A stretch of 42,190 nt of DNA from a virus: IMG/VR virus record IMGVR_UViG_3300048672_000850, positions 1-42,190 of that record. One strand, given 5' to 3'. The position numbers were made by a program, and so were the translations under genes. Numbering within the stretch: position 1 is the stretch's first letter; each line of letters opens with the position of its first letter. The notes beneath the pieces are model-generated. The model saw only the letters and a list, made by a program, of their open reading frames with translations. It did not search any database and had not been told where the DNA came from. Of the stretch, positions 3,816-42,190 are shown piece after piece.

Positions 3816-4415
3816 ATGTTCTTCAAGATTCAACCTGAAAAGCTGGAACATTTCCTGTCAGAGCGACCCTTCGGTAAGCTGATTGCTTTTGCGGGACCTT
3901 CAGGTGTAGGCAAAGATACTGCTGCCTGGTTGCTTACTAACAAGATGCCTGGCAACTTTCAAAAGTTCAGTTTTGCCTCTCGACTGAAAAAGATCTGCTC
4001 GCAGATGTCTAATCTGCCTGTATCTCGTTTCAGTGATCCAGTGAAAAAGAATACACAGGATGATTTTCTGGGGGTGACGCCCAAAGAACTTGCTCAGTTT
4101 ATGGGAACTGAGATTCTCCGCAATCAGTTTCATCCTGACATTCACTTAATCTGGATGCACGAAGATCGACTTGATTCTGTCTGGGATCTTCATGTCATTA
4201 CAGATTTGCGTTTCCAGAATGAGTATGACTATGTTCAGGCTCAGGGTGGAACCGTGATTCAGCTTTATCGGGATGTTCCTGCCCGAGGAATTCCTGGTCA
4301 TGTGTCAGACAAGATTGACTTCAACCGTAAACCTGGAGATAAATATCATGCGATAGAAAACAATGGAACCATGCACGATCTTGAATTGGCCCTTAGTCGG
4401 GTCATAACCCTGTGA
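3816..4415 (+). CDS. Deoxynucleoside monophosphate kinase, T4 gp1-like
   Basis: The protein has 199 residues with a P-loop GPSGVGKDT at residues 27-35 and the TDLRFQNE segment near residue 130 typical of phage dNMP kinases of the T4 gene 1 type. These phosphorylate dTMP, dGMP and modified dCMP to the diphosphates in the cytoplasm. It lies 5 nt after the Sak4-like gene. With ThyX and the MazG-like protein it forms a nucleotide-supply group. Substrate range cannot be read from the sequence. Confidence 0.85.
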   Translation: MFFKIQPEKLEHFLSERPFGKLIAFAGPSGVGKDTAAWLLTNKMPGNFQKFSFASRLKKICSQMSNLPVSRFSDPVKKNTQDDFLGVTPKELAQFMGTEILRNQFHPDIHLIWMHEDRLDSVWDLHVITDLRFQNEYDYVQAQGGTVIQLYRDVPARGIPGHVSDKIDFNRKPGDKYHAIENNGTMHDLELALSRVITL

Positions 4416-4426
4416 GTTAAACTCAC
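4412..4426. promoter_or_regulatory. Palindrome at the stop codon of the kinase gene
   Basis: GTGAGTTAAACTCAC is a near-perfect palindrome (7-bp arms, one central base) containing the TGA stop. It is followed by a pyrimidine-rich, T-rich tract (4427-4447). It could be a weak terminator or an operator; I see no way to decide. Confidence 0.4.
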
Positions 4427-4472
4427 TTGCTCTTTTGTCTTTTCTTCAATCAAACCTAAGTAGGTAAATATC

Positions 4473-4952
4473 ATGGCACAAAAGCCCCTGAATCTGGATC
4501 TTGACGCACTGTTGGCCGGCACTGTTGATGACTTGGCAGATGTTCCTAGCATTGCCAACTGGGCACCCGGTGCTTATGTTGCTTCGCTTTCCATGAAGCT
4601 GGAAAACAACCTGAAGGACAAGAAAACTGTTGGCGTCAAGTCGACTTTTGTTCTGAAGGAAGTTGCCGAACTGTCCAACCCTGACAGCACTGCACCGAAT
4701 CCTGGCGACAAGTTCACCCTGATTGACTTCCTGATTCATCCGAAGGAAACTGTGGCTGAAATGGGTCAAGGCGCTTTCAAGGAAAAGGCCAAGGTTCTCA
4801 ATGAACGTTTTGGTTCGCGCCAGAACGCTGTTGTTGTGGAAGAAACTCAAGATATTGAAGTCTTGATTGTCACTGGCCTGCGTACTGTGGAAGCCCAAGG
4901 TGATAAGCCTGCCCGGGAATACATGGCCCTCAAGGCAATGTCCCTGATCTAA
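4473..4952 (+). CDS. Probable ssDNA-binding/recombination accessory protein
   Basis: The 159-residue protein opens with an acidic LDLDALLAGTVDDLADVP segment followed by a beta-rich body. I recall similar proteins next to Sak4-type genes in other phages, usually annotated hypothetical or putative ssDNA-binding, but no catalytic or OB-fold signature can be verified by eye. The start follows AGG, 9 nt upstream of ATG. Context (nuclease, Sak4-like ATPase, polymerase) supports a role in recombination or replication; this is inference. Confidence 0.75.
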   Translation: MAQKPLNLDLDALLAGTVDDLADVPSIANWAPGAYVASLSMKLENNLKDKKTVGVKSTFVLKEVAELSNPDSTAPNPGDKFTLIDFLIHPKETVAEMGQGAFKEKAKVLNERFGSRQNAVVVEETQDIEVLIVTGLRTVEAQGDKPAREYMALKAMSLI

Positions 4953-13247: not shown

Positions 13248-16200
13248 TCAGTGGTTAAAACTACTTGAGCCGTCCATCAAGAGTTGAAGCTTGTAGGACA
13301 TTGGCTTACCGAGAGAGTCTCGGATTTGTTCTGCTTGAGACTTATTGGCATTCTTGTACAACTCCATCATGTAACGATTGAAGTTAACTTGCTTGCCACC
13401 AGACTCAGCATAGCTTTGTGCAAATTGCTGAATATGCTTTTCGTCAATACTTCCACCTTCCATCATGTGAGTCTTCATGACTTCAGCCAACTTAGCCCTC
13501 TTATCCCGATCTTGAGCTTCGTAAAACTTGTGTCGGAACAAGGTATCGTTGGTAAGTGCCTCATCCAAGGGACGGCCACCAACTAACCGAGAAGCAGTTG
13601 CAAGGCTGAACAGATCATGACTATATAGCAGACTCCCTTGATTAGTTGTACTGTGAACAGTTCCAGAAGGCACTCCCTGTAGCGTCTGGGCAATTCCAGC
13701 AAGGGGTCGTGAGATTCCTTGATGTTCAAGTCCCTGCAAGAGGGTTTCCCAAACCTTGCCACCAGAGCCAAGCTTAGATGCTGTTTCATACAAATTACCA
13801 AAGAATTTTGTCCATCCACCAATAGCCGGAATATCCATGAGATGAGTTGGAAGGATAGTCAGATTTCTCGGATTGATGTCTCCCCGTGAATACAGGTTTG
13901 TTTGCAGAATGAATGAAGGTGATCCATACAAGAACCAATTGCCCAAGTTCTTGCCAAGTGCACCATAGGTTGTGTCATACAAGTCAACATGATCTTTGTT
14001 TCCGCTGGCAGTGCCAACAATGTGTGAGTTAATGAACTGGAAACCCGGCAGAGACTGAGCGCCGTAAAGGGTACTTTGCAGACCCAACAACATTGCCATA
14101 TCTTTCTTAGTCCCCTCACCAATATACCTGAACAACTGTTGCATCAGGTTAAACTGGTAAGACTGGAACAATCCAATTGCTTGACCAATCGGTCCCTGGA
14201 AAACCATAGGACGCTGGCTAGCAATCATGTTGCCATCCACCCGGTTCACAAAAGTATTGATATATGCAAGAGATTCTTTCTCCGTCATAATACCGTGCTT
14301 CTGTGCCAGGGTAGTAAGTTGGTCCATCACATTGGCTGACACAAAGCGATTGAACTCTTCGGCCAACTTGTTTCCGGACAACTTCTGTCCAACCTCAGCA
14401 GTATCTTCCATCAGCTTCTTGGACTTAGCAAAAGCCTGGGCTAGCTTAGTTCGCAGCAAACCAACAGACTCAGTTCCATCCAAAGTCAGATCATCAAGCA
14501 ACAACTTGAACTGGTCAATGTGATCTTTCACATAGCCAGCATTGCGATACCTGTTCAACAGAGGTTGGCCCGGAGTACGCATATCCTCAAAGAAGTTATG
14601 GATTGCCTTAGTCTGTAACTTAACCGGAGAAAGAATTTCACTCTCAGTTCCGGGCAATTTGATCTTTGCCAGCTTTGACAGATCACCAGCGAGTTCTTGA
14701 TTACCTGCTTTAATTGCATTCGCAATGTGGGCAGTTTCAGTTCCTCGGAGGATGTTTGCACTGATTGCATTACTGACAGCATTCAGTGGATCAAGGCCCA
14801 GTGTAAACAAACTAAGCAGACCATTAGCACCACGAACAAACCTTGTGAGTTCGCCTTTAGGTGCAGTGTGGTTAGCCAGCAAGTCAATTGATGCAGTCTG
14901 ATATGCAGGTTTCAGTCCAAACTGATCAAGTAGAACATTGATCTTACTGAGTTCATCTGGTGTCCGTGCAGTTTCAAATGCTTTCCGAATTGCGGTCACA
15001 GGCTTACTGAACATAGATTCTGCTAGTGTAGCAGCTCCGAAATAAATCGGATGTTCATTAACCTTGGAAATGTCCAGAGCAGTCTTGATATAGTTGAAGT
15101 ACGGGTTATCACTGGTATTCTCCAGCGCAGCAATACTTCCACCGAAGCGACTTGTGGTAACTCGGCTAGTCTGCTTACCCAGATTCGTCAACTTATCAAA
15201 GGCCGGTTGATACCTCATCCGAACAGTTTCACGGACCAAAGCATCAGATTCCCGGGTGTGATGCTGAAGGATTTCATTGGCAATTGTTTCAGGATCAGTC
15301 TTAGGGAAGAAGTTACTCATTACCCCTTTGGTTTTCAGCTCAGAGTCAATCTGGTAAGAGTTCATTGCCTTTGACAACTCATACTCACCGCGAGCAATCT
15401 TGTACTCTTCCACATTCGCCTTGTTGATAACTCGGTAATGTGGGCCAATACGGCGAACTTCATCTTCCATACGAGCAAGCTCTTTCTCAGAAGCTGCCCA
15501 AATCATAGAAGTCTCGCCACCACCCATAACAGACTCATCCTTAACCAGACTAAAGAAGGGATACTTCTTAAAGTCAGGACGAACAGGACGAACAACTGAA
15601 GTGTCAACTTCTCGGTTGGCTACACCTCGTTGCTTATTCAGCAGCTGGAAATGATTGCCGGAAGTCTGACTAAGTTTCTGCCTGGCAGCCAGAACATTCC
15701 AAGTTTCCTTGTGAGTGACTTCAATCACATCATCCGCAAACTCATCGAGATGATTCAGAGTAACAGTTTCTGGAAGAATCCCAAGTTCCTTTGCAACCGC
15801 ATCACGTGCTTGCTTAGTAACAAGGAAGTTAACTCCGTCTGGACTTTCATGCAGGATAAAGCGTTTTGTGCTTCGGGTCAACTTTTGGTTAATGCCTTCA
15901 TGCTCAATAGCGGCTTCCAGCTTATTGCCCAAGGCAGACAATACAGGCAGAAGTTGTTGTTGCACACTTTCAGCGGCTTCCTTACGGATTGCGTTAGTCT
16001 GCCCACCAATGAATGACATGAAGGAACCGATAGTCCCATAATTGCCATTCTGTCCCTTGAGCATGGTAGGACTATCGCCATTACGGTTAGCTGTTTCCAG
16101 CATGTTATCCGTAATGTCCATCAGATTGCTGGAACGCTCACCAAGAATAATCGAGGCAGTTGCTTTAGCTTCAGTCTCATAAGCAGTTTGCCTGGCCTTG

Positions 16201-18110
16201 AAATAAGTCACGGCAGCAACCATATTCTCACTAATGTCTGCCTGCTCAGGAATACGGTAAGAGACCTTGGCATACTTAGGCAAGAACATCGGATCGGTCA
16301 ATTTCTCCCGCTCGATATTAATGCCACGCTTTGCCAAACTTTCCTGGAGATACGTCTTGGCATTCTGCCGAGCAAACAAATCTTCCATGTCACCCTTGAT
16401 ACTGGTTTTATCCAGCCAGCCCTTGCGAACATTGACCATATTCGCAACCATCTCAAGAGCCTGTTCTTCCCCGTACTTCGCCTTCTTCTCAAGGGCAAAC
16501 ATTTCATAGAAATGACCAGCAATACGCTCCTTTGAAGCTTTCAGGGTTTCCTTCAAGTTGACTGCATGACCCGGAATCAGTTCCAGTGAAGGGCCAGATC
16601 CAGTCACTAAATGGAAGTCTTCAAAGTTATCTTGCAAGGCCCGCTCAAGCAGAGGCAGATCATTCTCATGGATGTTCATACCTTTCTGCAATTGCACAAT
16701 ACGACCACTTTCCTGAGAAGCCCAGATGTATCGAGCATCAAGTTCCCGATAAAGCATCTTGACATCAGTAGTCTTGAAGCCAGGTTTTAGGCTGCTCAAT
16801 GGATCATAGGGAAGTGCAGTCTTCTTAACTGAGAAGTCATAGTTAGTAAGGGCCTTAAGCACACCTTCCTTTCCATGATACATATCACCAAGAGACATTG
16901 GCATAGGCATGTCCGTATGCACTGCACCCGCAGTATCTCCCATCAAGGAAATATATCTATGGGCATAAGCCTCTATTTCATTCTTAGGCTTACCCGCAAG
17001 CTTTGCCTTAGCCGCAAAATCTTCCAATGCAGAAGTTTCCCTTGGCAACAGAATCTCATCTGCATGAGCAAACTTCTCAAAGTAAGAGTTGGCATACCCT
17101 GGTGCAACTCCCCGATTAGTTGTACGGACAGGTTGGGATAGGTCAGCAACCAAGTTACCCAAACTATCATTACCCCCGGCCATCGTGCAAATATCCGTCC
17201 GTACTTCATTCAGTACAGTTTCTATACGCTGAAGATGAAGGGTTTGATCAACACCATAAGAACGAGAATACTCAAGAGGCAACGCACCAGAGAATTCCAG
17301 ATCATTTGTCTTAAGAATGATCTTTTCTGAACTAGCTGTGCTAGCACGTGGTTGAATTGAATCTGAGAAAGGGCGACGAGCAAGATCTTCTACTCCCCGG
17401 GCTTTGTTAAGGAAAGAGAAAGTTTTGGCACCTTCAATAGCGCCACCAACAACCCCACCAAAAATTGACCCCATTGCAATGTTCTTAACCAGATCACCTG
17501 CATCATGGTTATCAAGCATTGGTGCTGCACCCATTGTGAGTGCAATCATTGTTTCAGCTGCGGCAGCTTCCAACACATTCTGGTGAATACCAGCGGCCAG
17601 TGCCTTAAAAGTATTGGTGTTCAAGTTACCGATCATGGCAACTGAACTATTGATTTCTGCTGCTGAGGCTGCCCGGAAAGCTTGCAGACGGGGCACAAGC
17701 AAGTTGGTAGCAATGCTAAGATTGCCACCTAACTTACCTGTATTGAGTGCAGACTGGAGCAGTGTCAAACCTTTAGTACCTGCCATGCCAGGCAAAATAC
17801 TTCCGACAATAGCACCAGAAATGTCAATCAGTCTTTCATTCTCCCGGTAATACTTTCCCAGGTCAGAATCAAAAGACGAAATCAAGTCGCCAGTATCCTG
17901 GAGTTCGGTTTGTTTATCCGAAAACCAGTTACCGACAGTTTGTGCAGTACGGTAGAAACCGTTTACGGCACTAAGTCCTGTGGCCAAAACAAACTTTCCT
18001 GCATTAGCAGGATTTACCTCAAACCAAGACTTGCCGTCCCCCAAGATATTATGGGAGTCGGCAGCCCGGAGATAATCAGGAACATCCTGAAAAGCCTCAA
18101 GATCTGCCAT
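13248..18110 (-). CDS. Giant internal virion protein, probable DNA-ejection protein
   Basis: At 1620 residues this is the largest gene. It starts after AAGGAAA and follows two other long late genes. The N-terminal 260 residues include several Gly/Ala-rich hydrophobic stretches (about residues 95-115 and 210-225) that could insert in membranes; most of the rest is helical. I find no lysozyme or protease motif. Size, last position in the late operon and membrane-compatible segments fit an internal core/ejection protein like T7 gp16, but there is no recognisable sequence match. It ends 12 nt before the operon terminator. Confidence 0.85.
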   Translation of the reverse strand: MADLEAFQDVPDYLRAADSHNILGDGKSWFEVNPANAGKFVLATGLSAVNGFYRTAQTVGNWFSDKQTELQDTGDLISSFDSDLGKYYRENERLIDISGAIVGSILPGMAGTKGLTLLQSALNTGKLGGNLSIATNLLVPRLQAFRAASAAEINSSVAMIGNLNTNTFKALAAGIHQNVLEAAAAETMIALTMGAAPMLDNHDAGDLVKNIAMGSIFGGVVGGAIEGAKTFSFLNKARGVEDLARRPFSDSIQPRASTASSEKIILKTNDLEFSGALPLEYSRSYGVDQTLHLQRIETVLNEVRTDICTMAGGNDSLGNLVADLSQPVRTTNRGVAPGYANSYFEKFAHADEILLPRETSALEDFAAKAKLAGKPKNEIEAYAHRYISLMGDTAGAVHTDMPMPMSLGDMYHGKEGVLKALTNYDFSVKKTALPYDPLSSLKPGFKTTDVKMLYRELDARYIWASQESGRIVQLQKGMNIHENDLPLLERALQDNFEDFHLVTGSGPSLELIPGHAVNLKETLKASKERIAGHFYEMFALEKKAKYGEEQALEMVANMVNVRKGWLDKTSIKGDMEDLFARQNAKTYLQESLAKRGINIEREKLTDPMFLPKYAKVSYRIPEQADISENMVAAVTYFKARQTAYETEAKATASIILGERSSNLMDITDNMLETANRNGDSPTMLKGQNGNYGTIGSFMSFIGGQTNAIRKEAAESVQQQLLPVLSALGNKLEAAIEHEGINQKLTRSTKRFILHESPDGVNFLVTKQARDAVAKELGILPETVTLNHLDEFADDVIEVTHKETWNVLAARQKLSQTSGNHFQLLNKQRGVANREVDTSVVRPVRPDFKKYPFFSLVKDESVMGGGETSMIWAASEKELARMEDEVRRIGPHYRVINKANVEEYKIARGEYELSKAMNSYQIDSELKTKGVMSNFFPKTDPETIANEILQHHTRESDALVRETVRMRYQPAFDKLTNLGKQTSRVTTSRFGGSIAALENTSDNPYFNYIKTALDISKVNEHPIYFGAATLAESMFSKPVTAIRKAFETARTPDELSKINVLLDQFGLKPAYQTASIDLLANHTAPKGELTRFVRGANGLLSLFTLGLDPLNAVSNAISANILRGTETAHIANAIKAGNQELAGDLSKLAKIKLPGTESEILSPVKLQTKAIHNFFEDMRTPGQPLLNRYRNAGYVKDHIDQFKLLLDDLTLDGTESVGLLRTKLAQAFAKSKKLMEDTAEVGQKLSGNKLAEEFNRFVSANVMDQLTTLAQKHGIMTEKESLAYINTFVNRVDGNMIASQRPMVFQGPIGQAIGLFQSYQFNLMQQLFRYIGEGTKKDMAMLLGLQSTLYGAQSLPGFQFINSHIVGTASGNKDHVDLYDTTYGALGKNLGNWFLYGSPSFILQTNLYSRGDINPRNLTILPTHLMDIPAIGGWTKFFGNLYETASKLGSGGKVWETLLQGLEHQGISRPLAGIAQTLQGVPSGTVHSTTNQGSLLYSHDLFSLATASRLVGGRPLDEALTNDTLFRHKFYEAQDRDKRAKLAEVMKTHMMEGGSIDEKHIQQFAQSYAESGGKQVNFNRYMMELYKNANKSQAEQIRDSLGKPMSYKLQLLMDGSSSFNH

Positions 18111-18120
18111 TTTGATTTCC

Positions 18121-19782
18121 TTAGAACTTTGAGTTCACTGCCAACTTTTTAGCCAGAGCTTCCTGGTAATCAGCAGGGTTTGCGAGGTTAACCACTTTTG
18201 CCCCATTGACAATAACTGGATTACCCTCACGACTTCTGCGACCTTGGAAGCCTAGGGGAAGTTGGACTGTGACATTGTAGGTATTGGGAACCTTAATACC
18301 CATTGCATCAAACTGCCTAGAAGCTCGCTTAATCTGGTCAGCCCGTTGGATAACCTGAGCGAACTGAGCAGCTTCAGTTGATGTAAGAGTACCAGTCTTG
18401 ATCGCAGCCACCTGAAGATCCATCACATGATTCATGTCAGTGAGGGTTACGCCCTGATCCATCAGAGGTTTAAGTACCTTAGCAACCACAGGATACCGGG
18501 CGAATTCTGGTTTAACCAGATAATCATTCAGTGCACCAAGGTAGCGCAGGTTACTCGCATCAGGGGTCACAACTTCGGACTGTTTAAGAATGTCTGCCTG
18601 AACTTCCTTATTCAACCACTGAGCACGATTCTCAGCGTCTTCCTTAGACGTAGTTACCTTGAGAGCAGCACGTTTTTCTGCTGATAGGGACTCAAGTTTT
18701 TGCTTTGCCCGAGCAAGAACTCCCTTAGTAGCTTCAGCTTCTTCCCCCAGTTGAATAGGTAGCTTGGAGAAAGTATCAATAGCCCCTGCAGGAGTATAAC
18801 CAAACCGTCCTTCAGTCTTGCCATTGAGTACAGAATCCCCAAGCTTATAATAGACTTGAAACCTTGCACCCGCCTCAGTACCGAAGACACGCTTAGCCTC
18901 CTCTATTTCGCCCTTAGTGAGGGGCTTCTCCCCTGAGAGTTCACGGCCTTTATTAACTTTGTCAGCAAACAACTGGCCTTCTTGCAGTTTGAGTTCTCTT
19001 TCAGCAAGTTGATCGTTAAGAAGTACGCTACGAACTGACCATTCCTGTTCTTTCCGACGGGCATCCGCAACTGCAAGATCAAGATGTTTCTGAGCATTCT
19101 CAGCATTCACACCATGATACTTAGCATTAAGTTCTTCAGATGCAGCGGAGCGGGCAAGTTTAATGCCTTCCACGTTGTACTGAATAGCTTGCAACTCAGC
19201 CTGGTTACTTTGCAACCGGGAAGCCAACTTCAGAATATCAGCATTAGCTGCAATGCTTTCAGCCGTAAAGGTTTGCTTCAAACCAATATTAGCATTGACG
19301 GCTTGCTGAAGTGCTTGTTGGGTTGTCTGAACCTGACCCTTATAGAGTTCCAGACGGGCAACTGACTGTGCCAAGTCCTTTTCAACCCGAGGCTTGTCAA
19401 TCAGGTTACCCTTGATATATCCAACAGGATCTTTCAAGAATTCTGTGTTTTCAATCTTCTGCAAACCAAGCAGATTCTCTTCTGTGGTTTTTTGACTTTC
19501 ACGCAAACCTTGAAGCTGTTGAATAATCACACCGCCCTTGGCTTCAGGATCTACCCCCAAAGCACTTGCAGCTTTCAAGTTGGCTTCTTGAACTTTGAGC
19601 TCTCCGGTTTGTTTTGCGACTTCCGCTACAGCTTGGAGATTACCAATCTGATCGTAGATATCAGCAGAACTCTTAGCAATCTGCGAAGCTTTGTTAAGCT
19701 GAGCATTTGCTTGTCCGGTAGAGCCCTTTGAAAAATCCAAGTAGTCTTTCACGCTTACTTGGAGATCTTCATACAGGCCCAT
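18121..19782 (-). CDS. Coiled-coil internal virion protein
   Basis: The 553-residue protein is almost entirely helical, with long Gln/Ala/Leu/Glu heptad-like stretches (about residues 25-300). The C-terminal 80 residues are less charged and more beta-like. It lies between the 222-aa and 1620-aa late genes with good ribosome binding sites and short spacers. By position and coiled-coil nature it probably belongs to the ejected internal core, like T7 gp15. No motif proves this. Confidence 0.8.
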   Translation of the reverse strand: MGLYEDLQVSVKDYLDFSKGSTGQANAQLNKASQIAKSSADIYDQIGNLQAVAEVAKQTGELKVQEANLKAASALGVDPEAKGGVIIQQLQGLRESQKTTEENLLGLQKIENTEFLKDPVGYIKGNLIDKPRVEKDLAQSVARLELYKGQVQTTQQALQQAVNANIGLKQTFTAESIAANADILKLASRLQSNQAELQAIQYNVEGIKLARSAASEELNAKYHGVNAENAQKHLDLAVADARRKEQEWSVRSVLLNDQLAERELKLQEGQLFADKVNKGRELSGEKPLTKGEIEEAKRVFGTEAGARFQVYYKLGDSVLNGKTEGRFGYTPAGAIDTFSKLPIQLGEEAEATKGVLARAKQKLESLSAEKRAALKVTTSKEDAENRAQWLNKEVQADILKQSEVVTPDASNLRYLGALNDYLVKPEFARYPVVAKVLKPLMDQGVTLTDMNHVMDLQVAAIKTGTLTSTEAAQFAQVIQRADQIKRASRQFDAMGIKVPNTYNVTVQLPLGFQGRRSREGNPVIVNGAKVVNLANPADYQEALAKKLAVNSKF

Positions 19783-23213: not shown

Positions 23214-23795
23214 TCACTTCACTGCAATAGATGCAGACTTTGTTTGTTTCAAGAAGTTCAACTGTTCCCGGGCAACCTGAGAGAAGGCATCTGCCTTTTC
23301 CTTCTGATTAGTTGCTCGGAAGATAATTGCAGCAGCTTCTGTTGCAATCAGGTCAGGCATCTCATCACAAATGAAAGATACCCCATCAGCCAAACCTGGA
23401 TCTGGATAAGTATATACGCCCACAAGAATTTGTGTGCTTGCATCAACCGAGTTGATGGATATATTGGTATTGTCCACAGTAAACGAATTAAGTTGACTTG
23501 TAGAACCAAAGAACTGTTCAGGTGGACTATAGTGATGAGGAATAGCAGGACCCGTTACTGGCAATCGTTTGATATAAGCAACTTGCCGAAACAAGGGGTA
23601 GCGAGTCTTGTATGGGATAGTTTGATAACTCCCAACAGTACCAAAAGTGATAGTCTCCACAGTTACATCCTGAGGAAAATAACCACTTGAATGAAACTTA
23701 CGTGCAGTTGCTTTGACCGCACTCTCAGTGAGTGAATCCAAGTCGGGACGATTTGTATACAGAATAACCAAGTTTTTGAGGGAAGCCAAGGACAT
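23214..23795 (-). CDS. Head-tail adaptor/tail-tube-like protein, paralogue 2
   Basis: This 193-residue protein shares with the upstream 197-residue gene the order LV...T.RPD, AVKA...HS, F..DV, TF, Y K, FR over the first 75 residues. The size and position between capsid and nozzle genes fit a connector or tail-tubular-A-type adaptor. GGAG lies 9 nt upstream. A terminator lies between the two paralogues, so their expression levels may differ. Confidence 0.75.
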   Translation of the reverse strand: MSLASLKNLVILYTNRPDLDSLTESAVKATARKFHSSGYFPQDVTVETITFGTVGSYQTIPYKTRYPLFRQVAYIKRLPVTGPAIPHHYSPPEQFFGSTSQLNSFTVDNTNISINSVDASTQILVGVYTYPDPGLADGVSFICDEMPDLIATEAAAIIFRATNQKEKADAFSQVAREQLNFLKQTKSASIAVK

Positions 23796-23861: not shown

Positions 23862-24455
23862 TCATTGGAAAGATCCAAGAGAAATTTGATCCGCAAGCAA
23901 TTGAGCCATTGCCTCTTCAGCAAGGTTCTTGTGAGTTCCTGCAGAAGTGGGATCTTTCAACGCGCGAAACACTGCTGAGGCAGCAGCATATATCACAGCG
24001 TAAGGGTAACTATCAGCAACCCAAGAAGAATAACCAGCATCAGTGATAACTGGAAACTCATAAGCTGCAATGAGAGCATACTTAAAGGGAATATCTGACT
24101 TGATGTACAGATTATCCCCAGCAAGTACACAAACATTTGGACGAATCACCCCGTAGACATCTTTAAAGTGACTCACAGGAATCATTTCTAGGGGTCCAGC
24201 CAAGGGAACTTGATTTGCGTCACAGATGATCACAGAATCAAATAACCGAAACCGAGCAAAGATATCTTTGTAAGCCACCACTTGATCAGTCAAGGGGCTT
24301 GCAAACGTGACGAACTGTGAATTCACATCACGTTTAAACAAGTCCTTGCTATGAACTTGCAGGGTTGCAGCCTGAACAGCTTGTTTGATCAAGTTGCCTT
24401 GGTCAGGCCGTCCAGTTATCTCAATGACTGCTTGGACCAGTTCAGGCTTGTTCAT
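23862..24455 (-). CDS. Head-tail adaptor/tail-tube-like protein, paralogue 1
   Basis: This 197-residue protein is the paralogue of the gene at 23214-23795, sharing the N-terminal pattern of RPD, HS, F.RDV, TFA, YK and FR. AAGGTTAAG precedes the start. A head-completion or adaptor role is inferred from position just after the capsid genes. The stop is immediately followed by a strong terminator. Confidence 0.78.
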   Translation of the reverse strand: MNKPELVQAVIEITGRPDQGNLIKQAVQAATLQVHSKDLFKRDVNSQFVTFASPLTDQVVAYKDIFARFRLFDSVIICDANQVPLAGPLEMIPVSHFKDVYGVIRPNVCVLAGDNLYIKSDIPFKYALIAAYEFPVITDAGYSSWVADSYPYAVIYAAASAVFRALKDPTSAGTHKNLAEEAMAQLLADQISLGSFQ

Positions 24456-34099: not shown

Positions 34100-34133
34100 C
34101 GGGCTATTCTGCCCATTGTGTATTGGAGCCATC

Positions 34134-34835
34134 ATGTCGGTTATTTCTTCGCGTCATCAAGTTCTGCCCTTTGTTTCTGGCAAGTCTTCTGCCTTGACCG
34201 GTCAGCGTATGTTGAAAATCGGTTATAAGGAAAGCAAGGGTAAGAAAGCCAAGTTCCCTCCGCACTTTGCTAGCGTACCTAAACTGGCATCCTTTGCTGA
34301 ACTGGCTGAAACTATCACCGGCAAGAATTTGCTTGCCATTGAGGAGTATTTGATTGAAACCTTGGAAAAAGCCCAGAACGAAACCGGAAAAGCCTTGTTT
34401 GAGAAAGCCAATGGCAAACTGGCCGGACTGGACGATTCAGATATTGATCTGGCCGCAATCAATGCTTTTCTGTCTGAAACTTCAAGTTCTTCAGGGCGCC
34501 TGACGAAGGAATTGATTACCCAGTGGTTCGATTCCTGTCTGGCTGAGAATCTTGCAGTCTTGATTGCGGGTAAGTTCAAACTGCCCGATTCCCCGGAAAG
34601 CTTGAAGAATCCCTCAGTGGTCCAGCAGATCAACATTCTCCGGGCGAACTTTGAAGCTTTCAGCAACCCTAATGCTGTCTTCTCTGAACTTCAGATGAAG
34701 AATGTGAAGAGTGGTTTGCAATTGTCCGATGACGAAGAGCACTTTGTGCAGCGCAAGATTATTGCCCGCATCACAGAAATGGAAAAGCCGATTGTGGTTG
34801 AGGAAGCTATTGATTTGTCCAGCCTCATGGATTAA
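34134..34835 (+). CDS. Unknown protein of 233 residues, abundant early-type
   Basis: The start at 34134 follows GGAG. The protein has a basic N-terminus (residues 24-42, KIGYKESKGKKAK), then helices and an acidic C-terminus. I recognise no family. Its segment order loosely matches the first left-arm gene (166-780): basic segment, VP, TG, W-led helix. With the leader element at 34062 it may be highly expressed early. Confidence 0.8.
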   Translation: MSVISSRHQVLPFVSGKSSALTGQRMLKIGYKESKGKKAKFPPHFASVPKLASFAELAETITGKNLLAIEEYLIETLEKAQNETGKALFEKANGKLAGLDDSDIDLAAINAFLSETSSSSGRLTKELITQWFDSCLAENLAVLIAGKFKLPDSPESLKNPSVVQQINILRANFEAFSNPNAVFSELQMKNVKSGLQLSDDEEHFVQRKIIARITEMEKPIVVEEAIDLSSLMD

Positions 34836-36451: not shown

Positions 36452-36841
36452 GTGAAAACCGCAACGCCTAATCCAGTTATTTTTCCCGTGTCTTTCAGAA
36501 CCCTGTGTGATCAATTAGGGGGTTATACCAGAAAACACCCGGATTACAATAAGCCAATCTGTAGTTATTTAAGAGATACTTACGGTAATAGATATGAAAA
36601 AGCATTTCAAGTTCTTCTTCTGGAAGAGTTTCCTAACCTGTACGGATGCTTTCATGCAGTAATTTACGCCCCCATTAACTTTTACTACCAATGTGACAAA
36701 AACTGCGGTTATACAGACGGTGCTGATAGTAAGTTACGAAAAAGATTCATCAAAAAACTTATCCGTCGTCTTGAAAGTATGAAAGGTGAAGACAGAATTA
36801 TCTTTATCCAAGCTCCTAGTCACAAAGCTTATCTCTACTGA
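36452..36841 (+). CDS. Paralogous family member 1 of 4
   Basis: The 129-residue protein begins with GTG; GGA lies 6 nt upstream. It shares three blocks with the genes at 36862, 37283 and 38139: an SFRxL...Y...C37 segment, KAFQVLLLEEFPN (50-62), and LRKRFIKKLIRRLE (95-108) followed by GEDRIIFIQ (112-120). The segment between blocks 2 and 3 is hypervariable and here has two cysteines (C81, C85). No known family is recognised. Tandem duplication and divergence suggest an arms-race function such as host takeover or anti-defence, which is inference. Confidence 0.8.
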   Translation: MKTATPNPVIFPVSFRTLCDQLGGYTRKHPDYNKPICSYLRDTYGNRYEKAFQVLLLEEFPNLYGCFHAVIYAPINFYYQCDKNCGYTDGADSKLRKRFIKKLIRRLESMKGEDRIIFIQAPSHKAYLY

Positions 36842-36861
36842 AAACCTAAAAGGAAAACCAA

Positions 36862-37263
36862 ATGTATCAACCAAACCCTGCTGACAGGCAAATTCATCAA
36901 GTATCTTTCAGAGAAATCTGTGCATTTCTTAAAGAATATCAGTGTTATTACCCTTTGGCGGATATGCCTTTGTGTACTTATCTTTCAGTGCGTGGAACCA
37001 CTTCTCATAAAGTAGCTTTTCAAATTATCTTACGGGAAGAGTTCCCTAATGAGAGTGGGTGGAAAATTAACTTCCCTCAAAACGCGTTAATTTCTGAACT
37101 ATATATGCGGGACAGGTCCATAACTACCAGTCAAACCGCATTACCCAGAGAAAATTCTTATCTTCGCAAAGAGCTTATCAAAAAGCTTTTTGCTAGGTTA
37201 GAGACTATGGGTGAGGGGGATCGAATTATCTGTGTGCAACTCCCTGACTATTACTCCTATTAA
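36862..37263 (+). CDS. Paralogous family member 2 of 4
   Basis: This 133-residue protein has AAAGGA upstream. Its conserved blocks are SFREIC...C38TYL, KVAFQIILREEFPN (50-63), LRKELIKKLFARLE (101-114) and DRIICVQ (120-126). The spacer between blocks differs from member 1 in length and sequence. The function is unknown. Confidence 0.8.
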   Translation: MYQPNPADRQIHQVSFREICAFLKEYQCYYPLADMPLCTYLSVRGTTSHKVAFQIILREEFPNESGWKINFPQNALISELYMRDRSITTSQTALPRENSYLRKELIKKLFARLETMGEGDRIICVQLPDYYSY

Positions 37264-37282
37264 CCAGAAAGGGAGATACCAA

Positions 37283-37636
37283 ATGAACTATATTGAAATA
37301 AAGTTTAGCGAAGTAGTTGCTGCCCTAGAAAGCTACCGGAAGGACTGCCCTAAATGTAACGCATTTATGTGTAATTATGTGGGACTACACTATTCCTGGG
37401 CCACCAAAAAAGCTCTGCAAATTCTCCTTAAGGAAGATTACCCTAACAGCAAGGTTCCCGGGAGTTCTTCTATTTATAACCAAGCAACGGATGACTTAAC
37501 TTTGGATGGTATGCATACCATCGTTAAGTCAAATCTGGAAAGGGAGAAATTTATTGAAAAGATGATTCATCGTCTTGAACTCATGCCTGCCGGGGAAGAC
37601 AGAATTTTCTGTATTACCTCCTTTAATGCTTACTAA
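37283..37636 (+). CDS. Paralogous family member 3 of 4
   Basis: I chose the ATG at 37283, with GGGAG upstream, rather than 37211, which overlaps the previous gene. The 117-residue protein has C30NYV, KKALQILLKEDYPN (42-55), LEREKFIEKMIHRLE (85-99) and GEDRIFCI (104-111). It carries extra cysteines (C22, C25) near C30 that could bind a metal. It is the shortest spacer version. Confidence 0.8.
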   Translation: MNYIEIKFSEVVAALESYRKDCPKCNAFMCNYVGLHYSWATKKALQILLKEDYPNSKVPGSSSIYNQATDDLTLDGMHTIVKSNLEREKFIEKMIHRLELMPAGEDRIFCITSFNAY

Positions 37637-37660
37637 ACTCATTAAAAGGGAAAAACCCAA

Positions 37661-38050
37661 ATGTCTGCCCAAGCAACCAAAAAATATCGTCCATACATGT
37701 CTCTGGCTGAAATGCAAACCTTGCAAGTCTTGCTGGGTAATCATCTTCAGGCGGCTGACGGAGTTAACCGGACAAAAGAGAATCTTTCCCTGTTTCGTTA
37801 TCTGGAACGCTACATTGAAGACATTGAAGGTGAAATTAAAACACCTTCTGTTATTGTGGCGGCACCGATTCAGAAACCTGTGACTAAGGCAAAGATTGAC
37901 CCTGTCAGTCTTTATGATTCTTACCAAGAATCAGGTATGGGTGTATTCTCCCCTGAAGAAAAGGCAACTCTTGAAGAGTATATGTACGTCAATAAACTTT
38001 TCACCCCTGAACAGGCAAAGCACTATGAGCAAAAACTCTTTCAAATCTAA
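37661..38050 (+). CDS. Unknown protein within the paralogous array
   Basis: The 129-residue protein is not related to its neighbours. The first 65 residues are helical, followed by a proline/alanine linker and a second helical part (about 85-129). AAAAGGGA lies upstream. It sits between family members 3 and 4 and may work with them. No family is recognised. Confidence 0.75.
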   Translation: MSAQATKKYRPYMSLAEMQTLQVLLGNHLQAADGVNRTKENLSLFRYLERYIEDIEGEIKTPSVIVAAPIQKPVTKAKIDPVSLYDSYQESGMGVFSPEEKATLEEYMYVNKLFTPEQAKHYEQKLFQI

Positions 38051-38126
38051 CCCTTTCCTCACGGCAGTTAAGGCTGGCCTAGTTATTTGGGTTGTCTTTC
38101 TCTGCTATTATCTGGCAACAAACTAA
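38025..38126 (+). CDS. Small membrane peptide
   Basis: This 33-residue ORF overlaps the end of the preceding gene by 26 nt. Residues 15-30 (VKAGLVIWVVFLCYYL) form a likely membrane helix, after a short polar N-terminus. A weak AGG lies upstream. Supported only by the hydrophobic helix and the space it fills before member 4. Confidence 0.5.
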   Translation: MSKNSFKSNPFLTAVKAGLVIWVVFLCYYLATN

Positions 38127-38138
38127 GGAGAACTGAAA

Positions 38139-38498
38139 ATGCCTAAAGTTAAATTTGTCCCCATGTCTGAGCTGATTGAGGCTTTACATGCATACAGGGT
38201 ATTCCATCCAGATTATTCAGAATATGTGTGTGTTTTCTTAGAGGATTCCTTAATGCGTCGGGACCTTAAGAAAGTCCTTCACATCTTGCTTGCCGAGGAA
38301 TTTATCTATAACGTAGGCTTTATCAGTTTTGGTGAAGCTGCTAGAACTAACTTATCCATAGCATTGTGGGCGGAAACGGACAGCTACCCAAATTTAAGAT
38401 ATCCCCCTTCCAGTATTTTGCGCAAAAAGTTTATTGAAAAAATCCTACGTCAGCATGAACTTAACAAAAAGGAAAGGATCTTCTGCATTATGGACTAA
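38139..38498 (+). CDS. Paralogous family member 4 of 4
   Basis: The 119-residue protein has a strong AAGGAG 7 nt upstream. Its blocks are MSELIEALHAY...P..YVC31VFL, KKVLHILLAEEF (44-55), LRKKFIEKILRQHE (94-107) and ERIFCI (112-117). The middle region is the most divergent, and the GED of the other members is replaced by KKE, so it may have a distinct target. Confidence 0.78.
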   Translation: MPKVKFVPMSELIEALHAYRVFHPDYSEYVCVFLEDSLMRRDLKKVLHILLAEEFIYNVGFISFGEAARTNLSIALWAETDSYPNLRYPPSSILRKKFIEKILRQHELNKKERIFCIMD

Positions 38499-38545: not shown

Positions 38546-39577
38546 ATGAAATTAATCTGCAAAATCTCTGGAATCATCTTCTCTGTCCCAGAATTCCATA
38601 ACTTGATTCTGGGTGAAAGGGGCGAGCAAATCTTTCATCCTGTCTTTTCTGTTCCCCAGAAAACCTTGCTTGCCCAGACTGCTCAGTGGGCAAAAGGAAA
38701 TTTTGCCGGGGAAGAGAATTTCCTGCTTTTCTTGGCTCTGCTGAATTCCAGCAACCTAGTTAAGTTTCGTTCAACAGTTCGATTCACTGAAAACAGTGAG
38801 CAGATTGTTGCCCAGAATTATGAAATACTTCTTAAGGCGCTGGTCAGATTAAATTCAATCTCAGCCTATGAAGAGAAGTTTCCTCATGTGGTGATATCTA
38901 AGGATAACCAAGGACTGGAAAATATCCGGGGGATCATTACTAATTGGCTTGATTGCCATAAGGCTATTCGGGAAGGTTATACTTCTGCCGCAGATTTCCG
39001 GGCACTTAACATTCGTGAGACTGCCCTGGAAAGAATGATTAAAAATCCCCATAAGGATATTAAGCATTATGGTGGCCAGTTAGCTGAATGGGCCGCAATG
39101 GCCGGAAATTTCCCTGATTTTTCAGTTACCATTCATGGCAAGACTCGCATCTTGTCTGAATATTGGAAGGAACTGATTAAGAAATGCTGCACTTCTAAGA
39201 ATGTTTTTGACTTGGAAGTCAGAGATTTGAAGGAATTGCAAGAGCATTGCCTTGATAACATTGAAATGGGAAGTCTGTATTCCCAGCAACTGTTCAAGGT
39301 TTTGGATTCTGCCCTTGAGCGGAAACAGAATTATCTGGGAAGTGGTGAGATTGATATTTCTACCGCTTACCAAATCTTGGATAATCCTATGACGGCTGAG
39401 CAAATTAGCTTGCAGGTTTCTGTTATGTCAGCACCTGAAGTTGAGCCTAAGCTGGAAGATTACCCTTCTCGCTTTGAATATGTCCGGGCAAAAATGCGCT
39501 GGCAGATGAAAAGTACAATTGAGGCGAAAGCTAAGATTGAAAAGAAAGATTCTGGTACACCCTGGAGCAATGTATGA
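38546..39577 (+). CDS. Unknown 343-residue protein upstream of the helicase
   Basis: I chose the ATG at 38546 (AGG upstream) over a GTG at 38537. The protein is largely helical; the last 35 residues are charged and lysine-rich. No motif is recognised. Its position beside the helicase operon suggests a replication accessory such as a helicase loader, initiator or primase-like protein, but nothing proves it. Confidence 0.75.
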   Translation: MKLICKISGIIFSVPEFHNLILGERGEQIFHPVFSVPQKTLLAQTAQWAKGNFAGEENFLLFLALLNSSNLVKFRSTVRFTENSEQIVAQNYEILLKALVRLNSISAYEEKFPHVVISKDNQGLENIRGIITNWLDCHKAIREGYTSAADFRALNIRETALERMIKNPHKDIKHYGGQLAEWAAMAGNFPDFSVTIHGKTRILSEYWKELIKKCCTSKNVFDLEVRDLKELQEHCLDNIEMGSLYSQQLFKVLDSALERKQNYLGSGEIDISTAYQILDNPMTAEQISLQVSVMSAPEVEPKLEDYPSRFEYVRAKMRWQMKSTIEAKAKIEKKDSGTPWSNV

Positions 39578-39981: not shown

Positions 39982-39996
39982 AATGTGTGTTAACCT
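39968..39996 (+). promoter_or_regulatory. Candidate promoter before the helicase
   Basis: A perfect -35 TTGACA (39968-39973), a 17-nt spacer and an extended -10 (TGTTAACCT, 39988-39996) are present. The -10 hexamer TAACCT is a poor match, so activity is uncertain. It begins inside the end of the 135-residue gene and lies 30 nt before the helicase ATG. Confidence 0.45.
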
Positions 39997-40025
39997 GTCA
40001 TTCCTTTCACGTAATTGGATTCTGT

Positions 40026-41729
40026 ATGTTTGACAACAACCCAGCAAAAACTCTGTCTCTCTTGGAAAAGCTCCGGGCTAAACGCTTGGCAATGGCTCAA
40101 GAAATTGAGCGAAACACCTTACCTGAGAGGACTGAAGTAGCAAAGGTTATCCCTTCGGTTATTTTGCCTGAAGAAAATCTGACAACAACTGATCGGTATG
40201 GGAAAGTCATTTCCCTAAACAAGAAACAATCTGAGTTTGTCCGGCTTATTTCTGAAGGTAAGTCTGCTGTTCTTATCGGTGCAGCAGGTACAGGTAAAAC
40301 AACTTGCCAAGGTGCAGGTATTCATGCACTTATTCAGGTTGGAATTGCTGGCACTTTGGTTGCTGGCGCACATAAAAATCTTATTTCCGGGACTCCCGGA
40401 ATTGTGGTTTGTGCTTACACCCGGCGAGCTGTCACAAACATTAAGCGGGGTCTGTCAAAAGATCTTCAGAATAATTGTCTGACCATTCATAAGTTGCTGG
40501 GCTTTCGTCCGAACTTTGAAGAAGTCTATGATGAAAAGACTGGAGACTATCGCACATCTATGCGATTTGAGCCTGCTTATAATGCGGCCAATCCTTTGCC
40601 TTCTTCTATTAAGGTAATTATTGTAGAAGAGTCTTCAATGCTGGGCACAGATTTGCATAACCAGCTTGAAGCAGCATGTCCCCATAAACCACAGATTATT
40701 TATCTGGGGGACATTCAGCAGCTTCCACCGACTTTTGGCAGTGCAATTCTGGGTTTCAAGTTATTGGAGCTTCCAGTTATTGAACTCACCGAAGTCTATC
40801 GGCAAGCTTTGGAAAGCCCGATTCTGTCTTTGGCTTGGAAAGTTCTGCGGGGAGAAACCTTTGACTCCGAAGAGTTTGCTAAGCTCTCGGTTGCAGGTAA
40901 ACTCAAGATTCATCCCTGGAAAAAGAAGATTGCCACGGATGTGGCCACCGGTACATTGAAGCAGTTTCTTATTAAGGCTGCTGAGAATGGACAATACATT
41001 CCTGGTGAAGACATGATTCTTATGCCCTTTAACAAGGGGTGTGGAACCATTGAGATTAACTTGGCTATAGGTAATTATCTTGCCAAGAAAGCTCAGCGAA
41101 CTGTGTATCATGTCCTGTCAGGATTTGATTCCCATTACCTTTCCATTGGAGAAAGTGTGATGTATGACAAGGAAGATGCAACAGTTATTGACATTTACCC
41201 TAACCCAGATTACTCCGGGCGCCAGCCACACATGGCCAGTGTGACTTTGGATTATTGGGGAAATGATTCTGTGGTTCATAATGAACTTGATTTGGAGACT
41301 ACTTCAGATGCGGAAATTGAAGCAATCCTGGCTCGTGCGGCTTCTTCGGAAGATCGTGTTAAGCAAAGTAGCCATAGTGTGGTTATCAAGCTTTCGGCGT
41401 CAGATGAAACTGTGGAACTTTCCACGGCAGGGGAAGTAAATAAACTCTTGCTTGGTTATGCCTTGACAGTTCACAAAGCGCAGGGTTCTGAGTGGAGAAA
41501 GGTATTCTTTCTTACTCATCATTCTCATTCACGGATGCTGCAGCGAGAACTTATCTACACTGCAATTACCCGGGCAAGGGAAGAACTCTATATCATCTGT
41601 GAGCCTGATATGTTCCAGAAAGGGATTCTGTCTCAGCGGATCAAGGGTGATACCTTGGCTGAGAAGGCTGAGTTTTTCAAGGGTAAAGTGCGTGCAAACA
41701 ATCAACTTATGGAAGAGGAAATGGCATGA
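40026..41729 (+). CDS. SF1 DNA helicase, RecD/Dda-like
   Basis: I chose the ATG at 40026; the GTG at 39987 would include promoter-like sequence. The 567-residue protein has a Q-motif-like LNKKQSEFV (64-72), Walker A GAAGTGKTT (85-93), EESSM (201-205) as Walker B, GDIQQLPP (228-235) as motif III, and C-terminal YALTVHKAQGSEW and YTAITRAREEL (motifs V and VI). It resembles RecD2/Dda-type 5'-3' helicases. Roles in phage include origin firing and recombination. The gene overlaps the next start by ATGA. Confidence 0.9.
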   Translation: MFDNNPAKTLSLLEKLRAKRLAMAQEIERNTLPERTEVAKVIPSVILPEENLTTTDRYGKVISLNKKQSEFVRLISEGKSAVLIGAAGTGKTTCQGAGIHALIQVGIAGTLVAGAHKNLISGTPGIVVCAYTRRAVTNIKRGLSKDLQNNCLTIHKLLGFRPNFEEVYDEKTGDYRTSMRFEPAYNAANPLPSSIKVIIVEESSMLGTDLHNQLEAACPHKPQIIYLGDIQQLPPTFGSAILGFKLLELPVIELTEVYRQALESPILSLAWKVLRGETFDSEEFAKLSVAGKLKIHPWKKKIATDVATGTLKQFLIKAAENGQYIPGEDMILMPFNKGCGTIEINLAIGNYLAKKAQRTVYHVLSGFDSHYLSIGESVMYDKEDATVIDIYPNPDYSGRQPHMASVTLDYWGNDSVVHNELDLETTSDAEIEAILARAASSEDRVKQSSHSVVIKLSASDETVELSTAGEVNKLLLGYALTVHKAQGSEWRKVFFLTHHSHSRMLQRELIYTAITRAREELYIICEPDMFQKGILSQRIKGDTLAEKAEFFKGKVRANNQLMEEEMA

Positions 41730-42171: not shown

Positions 42172-42176
42172 GCTCA

Positions 42177-42190
42177 GGGGGGGGGGGCTT
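42177..42190. other. Poly-G tract at the right end, probable artefact
   Basis: Eleven G residues follow the last gene, then CTT. On the opposite strand this is a 5' C tract, the same as at the left end. Together they suggest tailed physical ends of a linear molecule or library, not genome sequence. Confidence 0.7.

Follow-up and report, generated by a model that had tools for sequence, protein, structure and literature searches.

Background

Host-takeover genes are found in the early accessory regions of lytic phages, as in the host-takeover module of the lytic phage SPO1, where 26 small early genes are clustered (PMC6873191). In rudiviruses (SIRV) the anti-CRISPR AcrID1 is encoded by small early genes that occur in several copies in close proximity, and duplication followed by functional diversification has been proposed for them (PMC11065993). 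PaMx41, which belongs to the same wider phage group as the virus described here, encodes Acb2 (Vs.4), a small anti-CBASS protein, from the gene acb2 (PMC10419184).

In this paper we describe four genes, F1 to F4, in a record of 42,190 bases from an environmental virus of bacteria, the whole of which is referred to as the window. The genes resemble those of AcrID1 in being small, present in several copies and closely spaced, and probably also in timing, which is early for AcrID1. We compare the four proteins with each other and with the contents of the same region in related phages, and weigh what such a set of genes might do.

Results

Genome context of the four genes

The helicase, terminase, portal, capsid, polymerase, primase and Sak4 of the window match phage families. 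The nearest isolates or named records are Pseudomonas phage 119X (Fredfastierviridae) and its kin PaMx41 and PaP2, Polaromonas phage Tiera, Aeromonas phage P5 and EBPR podovirus 3; individual proteins share 30-45% identity with theirs. Many IMG/VR contigs are nearer, with up to 60% identity in the helicase (55-60% in the closest related contigs) and 62% in the terminase. Judged from these protein matches, the virus is related to the Fredfastierviridae-like podoviruses (119X/PaMx41, Tiera, EBPR podovirus 3). A gene B profile, used as a host clue, gave no match in species genomes. Long C and G homopolymers lie at the ends of the record (1-70 and 42175-42190) and are probably a library or assembly artifact. 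The rightward operon appears to continue past the right end into 0.17-13.2 kb, and the record is probably cut within that operon. Two adjacent paralogous genes are also found in the structural region on the minus strand (23214-23795 and 23862-24455; 27% identity, E about 3e-11).

The terminase genes run leftward, and a rightward transcript starts opposite them at about 33.4 kb. Its order is gene A (34116), small genes, F1-F3, gene G, F4, gene B, gene C (39574) and a Dda-like helicase (39987); coordinates are collected in Table 1. Because the family is placed on the helicase transcript, we infer that it is expressed early.

Table 1. Coordinates of the four-gene family, its shared motifs and the conserved genes around it
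Feature	Position	Strand	Basis and remarks
Gene A, conserved early gene, left edge of variable region	34116..34835	+	homologs in 30 of the first related loci, 51 loci in scan
F1, family member 1	36452..36841	+	ORF; 129 aa, GTG start, pI 9.3; 38% identical to F2
Motif Q[IV][LI]LxE[ED][FY]PN	36608..36637 (F1), 37021-37050 (F2), 37418-37447 (F3)	+	DNA pattern, 0 expected by chance
Motif [FL]I[KE]K[LM][IF]xRLExM	36746..36781 (F1), 37174-37209 (F2), 37550-37585 (F3)	+	DNA pattern, 0 expected by chance
F2, family member 2	36862..37263	+	ORF; 133 aa, ATG, Shine-Dalgarno AAAAGGAAAA; homologous to F1, F3, F4
F3, family member 3	37283..37636	+	ORF and homology; 117 aa, ATG 37283 favored over GTG 37211
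Gene G, widespread early gene of the phage group, unrelated to the family	37661..38050	+	homologs in related loci, alignment of 15
F4, family member 4	38139..38498	+	ORF and homology; 119 aa, ATG, Shine-Dalgarno AAGGAG; most diverged copy
Gene B, conserved early gene, right edge	38546..39577 (alternative start GTG 38537)	+	homologs in 61 related loci; 60 loci
Dda-like SF1 helicase, downstream core gene	39987..41729	+	phrog_325 E=3e-61; Pfam AAA_19, UvrD_C_2

A first-pass annotation of this DNA, made from the sequence alone, had reported four genes in tandem. ORFs do open at all four positions named (36452, 36862, 37283 and 38139) and encode 117-133 residues, but the array is 3+1: gene G (37661-38050), which is unrelated, separates F3 from F4, so that the family stands on both sides of it. 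F1-F3 are direct neighbors separated by some 20 bases, every one having a start region of its own, and the start contexts of F2, F3 and gene G are alike (AAAAGGAAAACCAAATG, AAAGGGAGATACCAAATG and AAAAGGGAAAAACCCAAATG). The mechanical ORF of F3 opens at GTG 37211, within F2; the ATG at 37283, preceded by AAGGGAG, is the best start.

Gene G aligns with the family at shuffle level, that is, with no similarity. Its homologs are found in many related phages, usually immediately upstream of gene B, and it therefore belongs to the conserved set. Gene G and these homologs share an invariant K-x-R-P near the N-terminus and have no Pfam match. An ORF of 33 aa (38025-38126, plus strand) overlaps the end of gene G and has one hydrophobic stretch (MSKNSFKSNPFLTAVKAGLVIWVVFLCYYLATN), and may encode a small membrane protein.

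Homology, conserved blocks and the variable center

Pairwise identity among F1-F4 is 25-38%. BLASTP within the set gave E values of 7e-21 (1-2), 5e-13 (2-3), 6e-11 (1-3), 2e-10 (1-4), 1e-7 (3-4) and 3e-4 (2-4), and Smith-Waterman scores of all six pairs lay 8 to 29 standard deviations above 500 shuffles. Since every pair has E of 3e-4 or lower and a shuffle z of 8-29, the alignments place it beyond doubt that F1-F4 are true paralogs of one homologous family. The first-pass annotation had raised the prospect that the four might not align significantly; all pairs do.

Conservation is uneven along the proteins. Mean pairwise identity is 32% in block 1 (alignment columns 14-66) and 45% in the C-terminal block 2 (columns 107-135), versus 17% in the center between them (columns 67-106), where most internal length changes fall and where just two positions are invariant in the four-sequence alignment. 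An intervening segment variable in both length and sequence had been described, and these values bear it out. Two degenerate DNA patterns drawn from the blocks have exact matches in F1-F3, and neither matched in any of 100 shuffled windows. The motifs first described as common to all four genes are thus exact in F1-F3, whereas F4 keeps the layout with altered letters at both (EEFIY and KKERI). The family alignment has one invariant cysteine, C37 of F1, which had been assigned to the end of the first helix and which begins the second predicted helix. Apart from it the four-sequence alignment contains no conserved set of cysteines or histidines, and it shows no evident group of conserved residues of catalytic type.

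The proportion of amino-acid-changing differences (pN) follows the same division, at 0.29-0.44 in the C-terminal block, 0.45-0.57 in block 1 and 0.56-0.66 in the center, and most comparisons among F1-F4 have nearly saturated synonymous sites. The low pN of the blocks beside near-saturated synonymous sites indicates that both blocks are under constraint and that the duplications are old, and all four copies look maintained. With synonymous sites so close to saturation and no orthologs found, the pN of the center is no measure of positive selection.

Such a pattern may also be read without specialization. The genes could be paralogs specific to the lineage, retained through drift or for dosage, all doing one shared job, for instance attachment to a single host factor or to phage nucleic acid, with the center an unconstrained linker. 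The two invariant positions of the center and the low confidence with which it is modeled would fit, and the simple tandem pairs that other, unrelated orphan genes form in this region of some relatives suggest that duplication there may need no special reason. Divergence to 25-38% identity with both blocks recognizable in every copy nevertheless exceeds what is expected of redundant copies, and we hold this reading to be possible, at clearly less than even odds.

Searches for relatives of the family

No family model in Pfam, PHROGs, NCBIfam or PADLOC matched F1-F4, with nothing below E of about 0.03, and PDB sequences gave no match. Relatives were likewise absent from phage records searched by tblastn with F1 and F4 and from plasmids searched at the DNA level. 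Scans of viral contigs and species genomes with degenerate peptide and DNA patterns, which demand exact short matches, returned no homolog; two matches, one to a dissimilar protein and one to a protein that by eye is glycosyltransferase-like, were rejected, neither scoring above chance. A HMMER profile of the family was run with all filters off against six-frame ORFs of about 200 related loci and found nothing below E of about 0.4 besides F1-F4. A search of whole records of about 90 related viruses found the family only in the window, which served as positive control. When the family profile was compared with profiles of 1,037 small gene clusters of relatives, nothing but the family itself exceeded a probability of 11%, and early regions of relatives collected with profiles of the neighboring genes did not contain it.

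Further candidate relationships were discarded. Small early proteins of relatives were suspected of sharing a motif at the C-terminus; the profile built from hand-picked seeds recovered essentially only those seeds and missed the family. A gene of one related contig (L132:3596-3895) had hinted at a wider phage protein type, marked by a Leu-x-Cys helix and, at the end, an Arg-x-x-Trp/Phe helix; a regular expression for this type returned F4 alone, and PHROG and tblastn searches returned nothing. The paralogous genes of EBPR podovirus 3 showed no kinship with the family.

As far as can be seen in the collections searched, from which records very near the window may be missing, the family is a lineage-specific orphan. 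Its earlier description as matching no described family agrees with the Pfam, PHROG, NCBIfam, PADLOC and PDB results, and of two further checks raised at that time, the profile search gave only F1-F4 themselves in the related loci and a match to a well-characterized enzyme family did not appear.

Predicted structures

AlphaFold2 was run on the four-sequence alignment for F1 and F4. The F1 model has pLDDT 71 and pTM 0.69, with 2 of 5 models poor; for F4 the values are 75.6 and 0.71, and all five models are similar in confidence. Because only four sequences were available, the models are only moderate in confidence. Both have the same order of elements: a strand, three helices, a low-confidence center with a short helix, a long helix and a strand. 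Different folds in different members had been thought conceivable, and the agreement between F1 and F4 speaks against this. The variable center coincides with the low-confidence portion of both models, and the first view of the family as the product of duplication plus diversification stands on this one predicted fold in two members together with the homology of all four. Foldseek found no match at E <= 0.001 for the F1 and F4 models (pLDDT only 71-76) among viral models (BFVD), or for the F1 model (pLDDT only 71) in the PDB.

The isoelectric points of F1-F4 are 9.3, 7.6, 6.3 and 7.8, with net charges of +8, +1, -1 and +1. F1 is a basic protein with a Lys/Arg-rich final helix, and the family is co-directional with the helicase and replication genes. 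One could imagine from this that F1-F4, being near the Dda-like helicase, serve phage DNA metabolism as small enzymes or as proteins that bind nucleic acid, for example as helicase partners. We consider that very improbable: the net charge is not conserved, the family was not found in relatives that have the same helicase, and the moderate-confidence models gave no significant fold match.

The early region in related phages

Genes A and B occur together in 30 contigs, the window included. The interval between them has a median length of 2,250 bases and a median content of 6 ORFs, and 65% of the ORFs in it lack homologs in all other loci compared. By this survey of gene content it is a hypervariable accessory interval upstream of the Dda-like helicase. 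Over 57 distinct early regions there were 11 paralog pairs among 383 small early genes versus 1 among 555 other small genes. The F1-F4 family itself makes up 6 of the 11, and one (L133) was left out of the count as low-complexity, alanine-rich sequence. Four genuine pairs remain, in L023, L029 and the sister contigs L132 and L143, so that two of the four are in sisters. EBPR podovirus 3 has two further tandem pairs in the same early region, mutually unrelated. Gene comparison indicates that tandem duplication of orphan genes occurs in the early region of some relatives, and that four diverged copies are seen only in the window.

Other features of these regions were observed in passing. Three small genes with MPDIYLIY or MPDIYVIY lie around gene G in L132:4110-5468 and L143:4121-5465 and form another tandem orphan family. 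Small HExxH proteins that resemble metallopeptidases of the SprT-like type are found repeatedly in early regions of relatives (L117:1315-1764, L093:4296-4778, L105:3215-3670, L012:3292-3678 and L029:1665-2051), and long alanine/asparagine-rich repeats occur in early proteins (L133:2645-3385 and 3982-4824, L117:2420-2944 and L016:4241-4690). One contig has its two ends (L015:4-5122 and 13899-19017) in a large inverted repeat, probably an assembly artifact.

Small size, an early accessory location and several diverged copies, as in AcrID1 of rudiviruses (PMC11065993), together with the anti-CBASS gene acb2 carried by PaMx41 in the same wider group (PMC10419184), invite the narrower proposal that F1-F4 are a multi-specific set of inhibitors of one defense class, be it anti-CRISPR, anti-CBASS or anti-restriction. 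Nothing in PADLOC, Pfam, NCBIfam or PHROGs matches them, however, and no aca-like HTH domain was recognized among the neighbors scanned (Pfam, 10 proteins, a subset of the small ORFs). DNA-mimic anti-restriction proteins of the Ocr and ArdA type are strongly acidic, and with a pI of 6.3-9.3 F1-F4 are not. So specific a role appears unlikely.

Discussion

The reading that we prefer, with a probability of about one half, is that F1-F4 encode a small early accessory protein that has been copied and diversified to bind different host or defense targets, a function proposed from the features of the genes and their location. Repeated local duplication of one gene for a small soluble protein in the early accessory region would have produced the four copies. 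The conserved blocks would form a common scaffold of a strand, three helices, a long final helix and a strand, in which the end strands are probably paired, and the center, which is different in every copy, is likely to be a loop at the surface or a short helix. The proteins are most likely made early in infection on the rightward early transcript, a timing suggested by synteny. Their size, the lack of catalytic-type residues and the type of region suggest that they most likely bind host proteins or defense components, and the divergence of the copies suggests that each would have a different or shifted target.

The homology of the four genes, the element order shared by the F1 and F4 models, the constrained blocks, the accessory location between genes A and B and the orphan pairs in relatives all favor diversified binding proteins. 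Against this count the failure of any anti-defense or takeover family to match, the moderate models and a center that could merely drift. The first-pass annotation had pointed to anti-defense or host-takeover genes; the hypervariable early accessory location suits that suggestion, and position and the survey of gene content place F1-F4, as in host-takeover modules, among small genes of an accessory region on the early transcript, although location does not show function. Its term "undescribed system" goes too far for an orphan gene family that lies where relatives keep other orphans, sometimes in tandem pairs. On present evidence F1-F4 are a new family of orphan proteins whose kind is familiar, the diversified small genes of a phage early accessory region, rather than a new kind of system. 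A bolder idea, which we regard as a long shot, is a scaffold set with interchangeable binding centers, in which a new alpha/beta fold in four versions, each aimed at a different host or defense protein, would be a type of counter-defense repertoire undescribed in bacterial viruses.

If the copies do have different targets, they offer a natural scaffold whose variable center reveals the surface that meets the host, and four proteins of 117-133 aa are a set small enough for a laboratory test in one experiment. The interval between genes A and B in this large group of uncultivated podoviruses is worth screening for counter-defense and takeover genes.

Among known systems, the early interval of 119X/PaMx41, Tiera, EBPR podovirus 3 and the IMG/VR contigs occupies the same place between genes A, G, B and the helicase and contains orphan small genes, which in a few contigs form tandem pairs; in the relatives searched none has the F1-F4 family and no other has four copies. 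Acb2 (Vs.4) is, like F1-F4, a small protein within the wider phage group, but F1-F4 match no Pfam or NCBIfam family. AcrID1 comes from an archaeal virus, and F1-F4 are without a family match. For SPO1 it is established both that the genes form a cluster and how this acts on the host, whereas early timing and an effect on the host are proposed for F1-F4, and unlike the genes of that module F1-F4 are paralogs of one family. By analogy, then, we regard SPO1, AcrID1 and PaMx41 acb2 as parallels in mode of life and not as evidence of membership.
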